Assembly: GCF_900109665.1 (NCBI RefSeq)
Contig: NZ_FOAO01000016.1
Location: forward strand, 1-64,000
Direction: 5' to 3'
Source of the DNA: Blastococcus sp. DSM 46786
GTDB taxonomy: Bacteria > Actinomycetota > Actinomycetes > Mycobacteriales > Geodermatophilaceae
Length of the DNA stretch: 64,000 bases
Shown: piece after piece, positions 51,993 through 57,544 of the stretch
How positions within the stretch are numbered: the stretch's first letter is position 1
How the letters are laid out: every line of letters begins with the position of its first letter
The notes under the pieces: model-generated
The model's input: the letters and a program-made list of their open reading frames with translations, nothing else
Databases searched by the model: none
What the model was told of the DNA's origin: nothing
Translations under genes and position numbers: made by a program

Positions 51993-53036
51993 TCAGCGGG
52001 TGGTGGTGTCGGCGTGCTCCTGCTGCCGTGCGGCCAGCCGCTCCTTCTGCGGGATCACCACGTACTTCGGGTCCTTGGTGCTGGCGATGCCGGCCTCGAA
52101 GACGCCGAAGCGGGTGAGCAGCGAACCGGCCGCCAGCAGCGTGCCCGAGGCGACCGCGCCCCACCGCCGTCGTCCGGCCACCACGGTCAGCGTGGCGCCC
52201 GCCGCGGTGCACACCTGCGCCGCGCGCATCAGCGCGCCCGGCCGGCCCTCGTGGAAGGGCTCGCTGAGGAGCCCGTGGTCGGTCTCGACCTTGTGCATCG
52301 CGGCCAGTTCGATCGCGGCCCCGGCGATCGCCATCTTCCGCGCCGGCCCGGCCTCCTCCACCGGCGTGAACGCCATCGTGATGCCGCCGCCCGCGGCCAT
52401 CGCCGAGCCGCCGAAGACGTAGGGCAGCTGGGTGTGCGCCATGTGCCACGACGGCACCGCGGTGTTGGCCAGCAGCACCCCGGTGTAGGTGGCCAGCGGG
52501 CCGCCGAAGACCGCGCCCACCACGCCGCCGAAGCGCTTGAGCCGCGGGAACCAGCCCAGCAGCTCCACCGCCGCCGTCGCCCCGGCCGCCGCGCTGAACG
52601 GCGCCAGGATGTACGTGCCCACCGACAGCGGCGAGGTCGGCTTGAGCACCCGCAGCATGTGCAGGAACCGCTCCGGCCGGCCCAGGTCGTGGATCAGGTA
52701 GGCCACCGACAGGATCGACCCGCCGCCCGCGGTCAGCCGCGACACCCTCGTCAGCGTCGGCCGGTCGGTGAGGTCGGCGAGTGCGCCGAGGATCGCCGAG
52801 GAGCCGGCCGCCCCGCCCAGGAACAGGTACAGCGGCACGTCCGGTGACTTCCACACCGGCGTCTTCACGATCTGCCGGCCGTAGTACGAGGTGAACTCGA
52901 CGTCGTCGACCATCGCGACCTCGCCGCGGTGGCGCCCACGGCCGCGGCGGCGCTTCCGGCCGGTGCTGCGCTGCGTCGCCGGACCCCGGTCGGCCTGGCG
53001 CCACCCGGCGCCGGGGCTGGTGATACCGCCGGTCAT
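51993..53036 (-). CDS. NrfD-type membrane subunit of formate dehydrogenase
   Basis: A 347-residue protein with eight or so hydrophobic segments and NrfD-family landmarks (VPLYLFLGGAAGSSAILGAL, LIHDLGRPERFLHMLRVLKP, GPLATYTGVLLANTAVPSWH). It would pass electrons from the 4Fe-4S subunit to the quinone pool and replaces the cytochrome b subunit of FdnI type. The first ~40 residues are a basic, probably cytoplasmic extension. ATG 53036 is 1 bp from the stop of the 4Fe-4S gene. Confidence 0.88.
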   Translation of the reverse strand: MTGGITSPGAGWRQADRGPATQRSTGRKRRRGRGRHRGEVAMVDDVEFTSYYGRQIVKTPVWKSPDVPLYLFLGGAAGSSAILGALADLTDRPTLTRVSRLTAGGGSILSVAYLIHDLGRPERFLHMLRVLKPTSPLSVGTYILAPFSAAAGATAAVELLGWFPRLKRFGGVVGAVFGGPLATYTGVLLANTAVPSWHMAHTQLPYVFGGSAMAAGGGITMAFTPVEEAGPARKMAIAGAAIELAAMHKVETDHGLLSEPFHEGRPGALMRAAQVCTAAGATLTVVAGRRRWGAVASGTLLAAGSLLTRFGVFEAGIASTKDPKYVVIPQKERLAARQQEHADTTTR

Positions 53037-53037
53037 G

Positions 53038-54117
53038 TCAGCGCCTCCGGGAACCGAGGACGGCGGTGACCGCGACCCCGATCATCATCGCCGCGGCCTT
53101 GCCGGCCGCCTTCCACATCGCCGGCAGGTCCCGCGTGGTGACGATCGGGTCCGGCGGCAGGCCGTAGACCTCCGGCTCGTCGAGCAGCAGGAAGAACGCG
53201 CCGTCGCCACCGACGCCGTCGTTCTCGTCCCGCCCGTACAGCCGCGCCGTCTCCACGCCCTGCGCCTTGAGCGTCGCCAGCCGGGCGTCGGCGCGCTCCT
53301 GCAGCTCGTCGAGGTCGCCGAACTGGATCGACTGCGTCGGGCACGCGGTCGCGCACGCCGGCTGCAGTCCGTCGGTGAGCCGGTCGTAGCACATCGTGCA
53401 CTTGAAGACCCGGCCGTCGTCCTTGCGCTGGTCGATGACGCCGTAGGGGCAGGCCGCCACGCAGTAGCCGCAGCCGTTGCAGATGTCGCCCTGGACGACC
53501 ACGGTGCCGTACTCGGTGCGGAACAGCGCGCCGGTGGGGCAGACGTCCAGGCAGCCGGCGTGCGTGCAGTGCTTGCAGACGTCGGAGCTCATCAGCCAGC
53601 GGATCTGCTTGTCCGCACCGGTCTGGCCGGTCTGCGGGTCGAACTCGCTGAGCGCCTCGGCGTTGAGCACGCTCTGCTGCGCGTTGGCCAGGCTGACGTC
53701 GTCCCCGGCGACCGCCGGTGACGCGCCGCTGCCGGCGCGGTCGTCGCCGGGCCGCCCGAACGTGGGCATCGGCAGGTCGACGGCGCGGCTCTGCTCGATG
53801 AAGGCCACGTGCCGCCAGGAGTTCGCGCCCAGCTGGCCGGTGTTGTCATACGACATCCCGGACAGATCCCCGAGGGCGTCCCGCACGCCGTGCGAGTCGT
53901 CCATGGGCAGCGTGTTCCACTCCTTGCACGCCACCTCGCAGGCCTTGCAGCCGATGCAGACCGAGGTGTCGGTGAAGAAGCCGACCCGCTTGGGGTGCTG
54001 CTCCTCGTAGCCGGCCTCGGCCGTGACGTCGGGCAGCGGGCCGAACAGCCGGTTCTGGAACTTCTCCCGCCCACCCCCGCGGCCGGTGAAGGCCGGGCTC
54101 GCCGAGCTGATGGTCAT
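53038..54117 (-). CDS. Formate dehydrogenase beta subunit, 4Fe-4S ferredoxin type
   Basis: A 359-residue electron-transfer subunit with the four-cluster pattern of FdnH/FdoH. Visible are TDTSVCIGCKACEVACKEWN, SSDVCKHCTHAGCLDVCPTG, DICNGCGYCVAACPYGVI and KCTMCYDRL...ACATACPTQ. The C-terminal segment WKAAGKAAAMMIGVAVTAVL is a membrane anchor. ATG 54117 has GAGAGG upstream. A 127-bp gap with hairpins separates it from the alpha gene, whereas it abuts the NrfD gene, so transcripts may be processed or tuned here. Confidence 0.95.
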   Translation of the reverse strand: MTISSASPAFTGRGGGREKFQNRLFGPLPDVTAEAGYEEQHPKRVGFFTDTSVCIGCKACEVACKEWNTLPMDDSHGVRDALGDLSGMSYDNTGQLGANSWRHVAFIEQSRAVDLPMPTFGRPGDDRAGSGASPAVAGDDVSLANAQQSVLNAEALSEFDPQTGQTGADKQIRWLMSSDVCKHCTHAGCLDVCPTGALFRTEYGTVVVQGDICNGCGYCVAACPYGVIDQRKDDGRVFKCTMCYDRLTDGLQPACATACPTQSIQFGDLDELQERADARLATLKAQGVETARLYGRDENDGVGGDGAFFLLLDEPEVYGLPPDPIVTTRDLPAMWKAAGKAAAMMIGVAVTAVLGSRRR

Positions 54118-54244: not shown

Positions 54245-57200
54245 TCACGGGGAGGACCCCTCGCCGGCCTGGGCCGCCACCGGGTCGCGGCCGTTCACGC
54301 CGACCTGCCCCGACGGCACCCCGGCCCGGCGGCGGTAGGACTCGACGAACTCCAGCAGCTCCGGCCCCCGCGGCCGACGCCCGGCGACGATGTCGCAGGT
54401 GCTGACCTTGGACTCCTGGATGTGGGTGTTCGCGTCCATGACGATGCCCAGCAGGTCGTTGGCCGCGTCACCGGTGGAGATGCCGGCGTAGGACCAGTGG
54501 TACGGCATGCCGATCTGGTGCACCACCGTGCCGTCGCGCAGCTTGATCGGCCGCACCCGCTCGGTGACCAGCACCTTCGCCTCCACCGCCGTGCGCGCGC
54601 TCACCAGCGTCGCGAACTCGCCGTTGGTCAGCCCCCGCAGCCGCGCGAGCTCGGGGCTCACCTCGACGAAGAACTCCGGCTGGAGCTCCGACAGGTAGGG
54701 CAGCGTCCGGCTCATCCCACCGGCGGTGTGGTGCTCGGTCAGCCGGTAGGTGGTGACGGCGAACGGGTAGACGTCGCTGCGCGTGGGGTTGGCCCGGTTC
54801 CACGGGCCCTCGATCATCTCGAGCGTCGGGTTGGCCTGCTGCTTGTAGAACGCGTTCTCGACCACCGACTCGGCCGGCTCGTAGTGCGACGGCAGCGGGC
54901 CGTCGACCACGCCGGCGGGCGCGAACAGCCACGCCTTGCCGTCGCCCTGCATGACGAACGGGTCGGTACCGGCCAGCGCGTCCTGCGCCTTGGCGCCGTG
55001 CGGGGGCACGTAGTCCGGGCGCTTCTTCTTCTCGAAGTCGGGCACGTCGACGCCGGTCCACTCCCCGGCACCCTCGTCCCACCACACGTACTTCTTGCGC
55101 TCGCTCCACGGCCTGCCGTCCGGGTCGGCCGACGCGCGGTTGTAGAGCATCCGCCGGTTGAGCGGCCACGCCCAGCCCCACTCCGAGGCGACGACGCCCT
55201 GCTCCTTCGCGGGCTTGCGCCGCGCGGCCTGGTTCACCCCGTCGGCGTAGACGCCGCTGTAGATCCAGCAGCCACCGCTCGTCGAGCCGTCGTCCTTCAT
55301 CTCCAGGTAGGAGTTCAGGAGCCGCCCGTCGGGGCCGTAGCCGTTGATCTCGCGCAGCACCGCGTCGGCGCTGGGCTCGGCGTCGGGCCCGTGGGTCGGG
55401 TAGTCCCAGGTGAGGTCGAGCAGCGGGCGGTCCCGCGGGTCGGTGGAGTTCTTCAGCCGCTCGCGCAGGATCCGGCCGAGGTGGAAGTAGAACCACAGGT
55501 CGCTGCGGGCGTCGTTCGGCGGCTCGACCGCCTTGTGCCGCCACTGCAGCAGCCGCTGCGTCTGGGTGAAGGTGCCTTCCTTCTCCACGTGCGTGGCGGC
55601 CGGCATGAAGAAGACCTCGGTGCCGATCGTGTCCGGCGCCAGCTCGCCGGTCTCGTGCTCCGGGCCCTCCTTCCAGAAGGTCGCCGACTCGATCATCTGC
55701 AGGTCGCGGACGACCAGCCAGTCCAGGTTGGCCAGGCCGAACCGGTTCATCCGGCTGTTCGGGTGCCCGACGCCGGGGTTCTCGCCGACGAGGAAGTAGC
55801 CCGACACCTTCCCCTTGATCATGTCGGCGATCGTCCGGTAGGAGCTGTGGTCGCCGTCGATCTTCGGCAGGTAGTCGAACGCGAAGTCGTTCTCCGGCGT
55901 CGCGGCGTCGCCCCACCAGGCCTTGAGCAGGCTGGTCATGTAGGCGGGCTTGTTGCCCCAGAAGCCGCCCTTGCCGGCGGCGTCGGCGACGTAGTCCTCC
56001 AGCGAGTGGTGCTGGTGGGCGTGCGGCATCGGCAGGTAGCCCGGCAGCAGGTTGAACAGCGTCGGGACGTCGGTGGAGCCCTGGATGCTGGCGTGCCCGC
56101 GCAGCGCCATGATCCCGCCGCCGGGGCGGCCGATGTTGCCCAGCAGCGTCTGCAGGATCGAGCAGGTGCGGATGTACTGCGCGCCGACGCTGTGCTGCGT
56201 CCAGCCCACCGAGTACACCCACGCCGTCGTGCGGTCGCGCTTGCTGTTGCTGGTCACCCACTCGGCGACCTGCTCGAACACCGCCGGCTCGATGCCGCAG
56301 ACCTCCGACACCATCTCGGGGGTGTAGCGGGCGAAGTGCCGCTTGAGCACCTGGAACACCGTGCGCGGGTGCTGCAGCGTCTCGTCGCGCTTGGGCTTCG
56401 CCGGGATCGGCGGGCCGCCGCTGCCCGACGCCTGTGCGCGGTCGGAGTGCGTGACGTCGGGGTCGTCCTCGAGCCGGTCCTGCTCGGCGGCCCGGCCCGG
56501 GTCGTCGGCGCCCGCGTGCGGCGGCTCCTCGAACTCGTACTGCCAGCTGTCCACGTCGTACACGCGGTTCTCGGCGTCGAAGCCGGAGAACAGGCCGTCG
56601 AGGTCCTCGGAGTCGACGTACTCCTCGCCCACCAGCGCCGCGGCGTTGGTGTAGGCGACGACGTACTCCTCGAAGTACAGCTCGTTGGTCAGGACGTGGT
56701 TGATCAGGCCGCCGAGGAACGCGATGTCGGTGCCGATGCGCAGCGGCACGTGCAGGTCGGCGATCGCGCTGGTGCGGGTGAACCGCGGGTCGATGTGCAC
56801 GATCTTCGCGCCGCGGGCCTTGGCCTCACCCACCCACTGGAAGCCCACCGGGTGGCACTCGGCCATGTTCGAACCCTCGATGACGATGCAGTCGGAGTTC
56901 GCGAGGTCTTCCAGGAAGTTCGTGGCGCCGCCACGACCGAACGAGGCACCCAGACCGGGCACCGTCGCGGAGTGCTATATGCGGGCCTGGTTCTCGATCT
57001 GGATCGCGCCCAGGGCGCTGTAGAGCTTCTTCATGAGGTAGTTCTCCTCGTTGTCGAGGGTCGCCCCTCCGAGGCTCGCTACTCCCATGGTGCGGTTGAC
57101 GCGCTTGCCCTCGTTCTCGTCCTGCCAGCCCTTGCGCCGGGCCTCCAGGACGCGGTCGGCGATCATCTCCATCGCCGTGCCGAGCTCGAGGTCCTCCCAC

Positions 57201-57544
57201 TCCGTCCCGAACGGACGGCGGTACTTCACCGTGGTGACCCGCGACGGGCTGGTGACCAGCTGCTTGCTCGCCGCACCCTTGGGGCACAGCCGGCCGCGGT
57301 TGATCGGCGAGTCCGGGTCGCCCTCGATCTGGACGACCGCGTCGTCCTTCACGTAGACGTTCTGCGCGCAGCCGACGGCGCAGAACGGGCAGACGCTCTT
57401 CACGACCCGGTCGGCGGTGGCGGTGCGCGACACCGTGGCCTCGGTGGCCTTGCTGCGCGCGGCCTTGCCGCGGCCCAGCGGGTCGGAGCCGGTGAGCTGG
57501 CGGTACAGCGGCCAGCTGTCGAGCCAGGTCTTCACGGGCGTCAC
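54245..57544 (-). CDS. fdhA: Formate dehydrogenase alpha subunit, selenoprotein with UAG-encoded Sec
   Basis: A molybdopterin-dependent formate dehydrogenase catalytic subunit of about 1,099 residues if TAG at 56975-56977 is read through. The N-terminal 4Fe-4S site is Cys52, 55, 59 and 87 (VCPFCAVGCAQ, GRLCPKG). Before the TAG comes ALGAIQIENQARI; after it, in the same frame, HSATVPGLGASFGRGG, so TAG is codon 190, exactly the Sec position of the family. Downstream homology is complete (SNMAECHPVG, GENPGVGHPNSRMNR, PYHWSYAG). A SECIS-like hairpin follows. No twin-arginine signal is visible. The start is GTG 57544 or 57535. A split pseudogene is unlikely. Confidence 0.93.
56945..56963 (-). promoter_or_regulatory. 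Bacterial SECIS-like hairpin
   Basis: Minus strand: GGTGCCC, loop GGTCT, GGGTGCC. All seven positions pair (two G-U wobbles). The loop carries the GGUCU found at the tip of the E. coli fdhF SECIS (from memory), and 18 nt separate the TAG codon from the loop, the same as in fdhF. This is the SelB-binding signal expected for selenocysteine insertion. Confidence 0.8.
56975..56977 (-). other. In-frame TAG codon predicted to encode selenocysteine
   Basis: Minus-strand TAG at codon 190 of fdhA, between ARI and HSATV. TAG also ends ordinary genes in this window (for example at 7263, 12184, 24888 and 48806), so it must be recoded only in this context. It needs a tRNA-Sec with a CUA anticodon, which is not in the window. 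Confidence 0.85.

Follow-up and report, generated by a model that had tools for sequence, protein, structure and literature searches.

The formate dehydrogenase locus

The window analysed here is a 64,000-nt stretch of DNA from Blastococcus sp. DSM 46786. On its reverse strand it carries fdhA, the gene for an actinobacterial formate dehydrogenase (FDH) alpha subunit, followed downstream by genes for a 4Fe-4S protein and then an NrfD-like protein (Table 1). The fdhA frame runs from a GTG start at 57544 to a TGA stop at 54245-54247 and encodes 1099 aa, including the residue at a single in-frame TAG that is preceded by 189 open codons and followed by 909. The sequence around this codon reads ENQARI-TAG-HSATVPGL. 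When FdhA is aligned to solved formate dehydrogenases, residue 190 falls on a position that is Cys in 9qm0 and is printed as X in 1h0h, where we take X to stand for selenocysteine (Sec). An earlier note on this DNA had described fdhA as open on both sides of one TAG at the family's Sec position, and the frame and the alignment bear this out.

Table 1. Features discussed in the text. Positions are those of the window unless a contig (C) is named.
Feature	Position	Strand	Evidence
fdhA, actinobacterial formate dehydrogenase alpha subunit	54245..57544	-	NCBIfam NF041513, 1898.9 bits (cut-off 1400)
In-frame UAG, predicted to be read as selenocysteine, residue 190 of FdhA	56975..56977	-	aligned to X of QARI-X-HSATV in 1h0h
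AUA isoleucine codon directly 5' of the Sec-UAG	56978..56980	-	locus comparison
Predicted SECIS hairpin, 7 pairs, loop GGUCU at 56952-56956	56945..56963	-	fold, Rfam, covariation
4Fe-4S dicluster protein, probable FDH beta subunit	53038..54117	-	TIGR01582, 181.7 bits (below its cut-off of 334.7)
NrfD-like membrane protein, probable FDH membrane anchor	51993..53036	-	profile match
tRNA-Sec, anticodon CUA, source genome (G000)	C18:67468-67559		tRNA-Sec family, 67.7 bits (gathering 47)
UCA tRNA-Sec, Geodermatophilus sp. LHW52908	C17:1173-1263		81.8 bits
AhpD-like gene with in-frame TGA, Geodermatophilus sp. LHW52908	C17:1579-2154		TIGR01926, 112.6 bits (cut-off 81.8)

UAG is also used as an ordinary stop in the window, as the earlier note had stated. 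Besides the N-terminal part of fdhA, 7 of 36 ORFs selected by codon-position GC end in TAG, five of them with Pfam domains and two without. At locus L097, the stop codon of fdhA is also a TAG, which gives a single gene with UAG both at the Sec site and as terminator.

tRNA-Sec, sel genes and further UAG candidates in the source genome

The source genome is a 99.99% complete draft of 4.59 Mb in 47 contigs. The earlier note had proposed searching it for a tRNA-Sec with a CUA anticodon and for selA, selB and selD. One such tRNA passed the gathering score of the family model and is the sole tRNA-Sec of the genome; no UCA tRNA-Sec scored over the cut-off in the 47-contig draft. The only other match over this cut-off is a tRNA-Ser(UGA), 16 kb beyond the window. 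All three sel genes are found beside the CUA tRNA-Sec, each over its curated cut-off (selA 420.7 bits, selB 279 bits, selD 390 bits), and selB matches its profile over positions 2-355 of 581 only. The tRNA has a long variable arm. ARAGORN labels it ‘tRNA-Pyl(cta)’, and automatic annotation may mislabel the gene in this way across the family.

Additional UAG selenoprotein candidates were identified. A second FDH, on contig C21, has an in-frame TAG at the same site as fdhA. Two UGSC-family proteins read D-TAG-GSC with a hairpin after the codon, one at C16:75516 (133 bits) and one at C14:189547 (102.9 bits, below the cut-off of 125). The first of these genes (C16:75516-75941) adjoins a peroxidase-related, AhpD-like gene (C16:76126-76512) that has no in-frame stop.

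UAG- and UGA-type formate dehydrogenases

A scan of GTDB contigs with a UAG-motif pattern returned 100 stretches, all 100 of which lie in open FDH frames; the pattern includes the TAG itself, detects only UAG FDH of that motif and is silent on UAG-Sec in other genes. Among the 80 titles listed, 77 name Geodermatophilus, Blastococcus, Modestobacter, Klenkia, Goekera, Trujillonella or ‘Geodermatophilaceae’, the six genera being, we assume, members of that family. The remaining three, a Frankiales MAG, a Marmoricola MAG (L096) and ‘UNVERIFIED_ORG: Bacillus sp. AZ43’ (L098), all have a UAG FDH and are probably mislabelled or contaminated records.

A second scan, independent of the TAG pattern, covered 112 Geodermatophilaceae genomes. 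FDH of the fdhA type was detected in 100 of them at E 1e-100, and every full-length FDH among the matches listed has an in-frame TAG. At the same threshold, none was found in the nine genomes of genera g5-g7. In one genome (G079), two FDH copies (L298 and L299) are missing the region around the Sec codon and the hairpin and have a shifted frame, reflecting either an assembly error or a real loss.

Outside the family, the best-scoring 29 of 95 matching genomes of the class all have TGA instead of TAG at the Sec site, followed by the same hairpin with the loop GGTCT (27 loci) or AGTCT (2 loci). These UGA-type proteins are 64-68% identical to FdhA. The alignment to UGA-type homologues that the earlier note had called for thus places both types over the same SECIS. 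Some other members of the class, outside the 29, give a full-length FDH match without a stop.

The SECIS hairpin

The earlier note had placed a hairpin with a GGUCU loop 18 nt after the TAG. The loop is as described, whereas 18 nt is the distance from the TAG to the loop, and the stem begins 11 nt after the TAG. Counting the T of TAG as 1, positions 15-21 pair with 27-33 around the loop at 22-26. Folding of the single fdhA sequence yielded an energy within that of shuffles (z -1.1, no significance). Rfam SECIS_3 matches the hairpin weakly (23.6 bits vs gathering 63), and a search of the whole window with Rfam at gathering thresholds gave no match.

Because the single-sequence fold was not significant, the hairpin was assessed by covariation. 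The element of the window was combined with 99 pattern loci (one of the 100 was too short and was left out), giving 100 elements, 53 of them distinct. Both partners of pair 18-30 are synonymous third positions, and the pairing is intact in all 53 distinct elements with four pair types (C-G 25, G-U 17, G-C 8, U-A 3), compared with a mean of 25 and a maximum of 39 under 5000 shuffles that preserve columns and do not correct for relatedness of the elements. For pair 15-33 the count is 49 of 53, a level reached in 1 of the 5000 shuffles. Pair 17-31 gave no signal, since its count of 52 of 53 is that of every shuffle.

At the level of single bases, T17, G23 and T24 are invariant in the 100 elements, 99 of which have the loop GGTCT and one AGTCT. 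T17, G22 and G23 are fixed by the protein sequence (T17 by a Val codon, G23 by a Gly codon). T24, at a loop position where any third base would be synonymous, is T in 100/100 elements; of the 102 Gly codons in fdhA itself, 11 are GGT. Close to the Sec site GGT is not unusual, as three other Gly codons at most 34 codons downstream are GGT in 52-68 of 94 rows (six of the 100 pattern loci, with fewer than 150 bases on a side, were left out of this comparison). Counted from its Sec codon, UGA, E. coli fdhF likewise has T at position 17 and GGTCT at positions 22-26, bases that contact SelB. The two differ in the codon and the one before it (GUC-UGA in E. coli, AUA-UAG in the window) and in the stem, which consists of seven continuous pairs in the window and contains a bulged U17 in E. 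coli. A hairpin just downstream of the codon, with G in the loop and kept by covariation, is what characterizes a bacterial SECIS at the sequence level, and fdhA has such a predicted element.

Anticodons of tRNA-Sec across the family

In the scan of Geodermatophilaceae, tRNA-Sec was detected in 108 of the 112 genomes; the four without a match at 1e-10 are all at most 82% complete. The 110 tRNA-Sec matches comprise 102 with a CUA and eight with a UCA anticodon. By genome, 101 of the 108 have CUA and seven have UCA only. The latter are drafts of at least 190 contigs from three genera, namely g5 (three genomes), g6 (one) and g7 (three; in all G066, G068, G069, G070, G072, G073 and G074). The consistent differences between the UCA and CUA genes of the family are the anticodon and one anticodon-stem pair, which is U-A in UCA and C-G in CUA tRNAs. 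In two of the UCA genomes, G066 and G072, the UGSC matches contain no in-frame stop, and the motif scan there was empty; no UGA selenoprotein was found in g5-g7 among FDH, UGSC and the AhpD-like protein.

Among 29 selA loci of the outgroup, 16 include a tRNA-Sec, all UCA. In a SelA tree, 19 SelA sequences of CUA genomes from four genera (g1, g2, g8 and g9) form one clade with support 100/99. The tree does not put g6 and g7 beside this clade, with weak support in that region; it was midpoint-rooted, contains 51 of 59 loci after rows shorter than 250 aa were left out, and is without g3-g5 and g10-g12. The simplest reading is a single joint change of codon and anticodon, in a common ancestor of the majority of Geodermatophilaceae. 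The tree is compatible both with a replacement of UGA by UAG within the family and with one that preceded the branching of g5-g7. The resulting family-wide map joins relatives with UGA-Sec to a UAG switch that is marked by two anticodon changes and one compensated stem pair.

UAG as a probable selenocysteine codon in fdhA

We estimate at about 96% the probability that fdhA encodes a formate dehydrogenase with an active-site selenocysteine programmed by UAG. The roles of SelA, SelB and SelD are established for the bacterial Sec pathway, and by analogy they would be the same in the source strain. SelD would make selenophosphate, SelA would convert Ser-tRNA to Sec-tRNA on the CUA tRNA-Sec, and SelB would carry this Sec-tRNA to a ribosome held at the fdhA UAG by the downstream SECIS hairpin, while UAG codons without such a hairpin would terminate as usual. 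Apart from the paired change of codon and anticodon, this would be the usual Sec pathway of bacteria. The genomic data show fdhA, a tRNA-Sec with a CUA anticodon, the three sel genes and a hairpin that is conserved, and from these we infer Sec insertion in the source strain.

Three other explanations were weighed. Suppression of UAG by another tRNA, or low-level readthrough giving a mostly short product, would agree with the ordinary genes that also end in UAG, but the conserved SECIS and the matching tRNA-Sec amount to a dedicated Sec route, and we regard this explanation as very unlikely. The TAG may also be seen as a sequencing error (a misread TGA) or as the nonsense mutation of a pseudogene, which is what a lone in-frame stop in an intact gene looks like. 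A read error is excluded because other genomes carry the same TAG, and the explanation as a whole is refuted because relatives share the TAG (part of the pattern in one of the two scans) and the genome contains the cognate CUA tRNA-Sec; we give it almost no credence. Insertion of pyrrolysine, a system that has a UAG codon and a CUA tRNA in common with the source genome and is what the ARAGORN label points to, is extremely improbable, since the tRNA passes the gathering score of the tRNA-Sec family, with its long variable arm, closely resembles the UCA tRNA-Sec of the same bacterial family and sits in the selA-selB-selD locus.

Sec insertion at the fdhA UAG thus stands as the preferred reading, as the earlier note had proposed, and the genomic tests it named came out in its favour. 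The source genome combines a CUA tRNA-Sec, selA, selB and selD and a TAG at the Sec site with no competing UCA tRNA-Sec in the draft, a set of genomic features by which it is a predicted UAG-Sec genome. A natural change of stop-codon meaning is thereby confirmed from the raw sequence, with its genomic parts in place.

UAG-Sec is said to have been demonstrated in Mukai 2016 by 75Se labelling or mass spectrometry. PMC5330540 cites Mukai 2016 for three Geodermatophilaceae genomes that combine a CUA tRNA-Sec with UAG in FDH and UGSC proteins, and it names Blastococcus saxobsidens as having an AhpC with UAG. PMC5133445 gives Sec as specified by UAG in Blastococcus, and PMC10778597 mentions recoding of both UAG and UAA to Sec in some species. 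The statement of the earlier note that UAG-Sec has already been reported for Geodermatophilus and Blastococcus agrees with PMC5330540 and PMC5133445. The predicted UAG-Sec of the source genome is therefore a known variant, already published for Geodermatophilaceae: the genome shares the CUA tRNA-Sec, carries UAG at the Sec position in both FDH and UGSC proteins and belongs to the same family, nothing essential differs, and it is another of that kind.

A second tRNA-Sec in Geodermatophilus sp. LHW52908

Geodermatophilus sp. LHW52908 (G058) is the sole one of the 101 CUA genomes that also has a UCA tRNA-Sec. Its FDH reads ATA-TAG, on a stretch that agrees with locus L071 at 4501 of 4501 bases, and its CUA tRNA-Sec is located on contig C11. 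The UCA tRNA-Sec lies on contig C17, approximately 0.3 kb from an AhpD-like gene that reads NRCFY-TGA-MESH, with a candidate hairpin beginning 10 nt after the TGA. Against NF041238, the AhpD-related (seleno)protein family, this gene scores 51.8 bits, below the cut-off of 175. ORFs near the UCA tRNA-Sec are transposase-like, as judged from their translations, and GC is 64% in the first 6 kb of C17 vs 76% in the last 49 kb. A segment of 8 kb from C17 (41001-49000) has matches in all 26 genus genomes searched, LHW52908 itself included, with the best pieces mostly at 75-89%; the contig as a whole is therefore not foreign. C17 is possibly a chimeric join.

The TGA of the AhpD-like gene is ambiguous and may be a candidate Sec codon. 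Its column in 120 AhpD-like homologues contains Cys (60), Trp (59) and Leu (1), with Trp in the two nearest. Trp in the homologues could be UGA read by another table, which is suspected because Trp would break CxxC; the TGA could also be a broken Trp codon. Other matches to this protein in the family scan are distant (at most 40% identity) and have no stops. At E 1e-40 it had no match in 396 genomes of the phylum, a sample without G058 and so without a positive control.

We tentatively suggest, at slightly less than even odds, that LHW52908 uses two Sec codons, with the CUA tRNA-Sec reading the FDH UAG and an acquired UCA tRNA-Sec restoring UGA-Sec, so that codon and tRNA would travel as a small mobile cassette using the SelA, SelB and SelD of the host. 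With UGA-Sec possibly regained on mobile DNA as its last element, the family-wide map makes the order and cost of a code change testable. The seven UCA-only genomes of the family and LHW52908 with both anticodons are possibly new: the available parts of the open-licence literature yielded no description of UCA Geodermatophilaceae, nor of any genome in which the two Sec codons occur together.

The codon preceding UAG

All 100 UAG-type FDH loci have AUA as the codon directly preceding the Sec-UAG, and in fdhA itself AUA accounts for 1 of 36 Ile codons. A role of this codon in pausing or in weakening termination would be a guess. The codon before the Sec-TGA in the 29 UGA-type loci is AUU (19), AUA (8) or GUU (2). 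At 24 TAG-GSC sites of UGSC genes, the TAG is preceded by GAT (14) or GAC (10), and AUA is therefore not necessary for every UAG-Sec.
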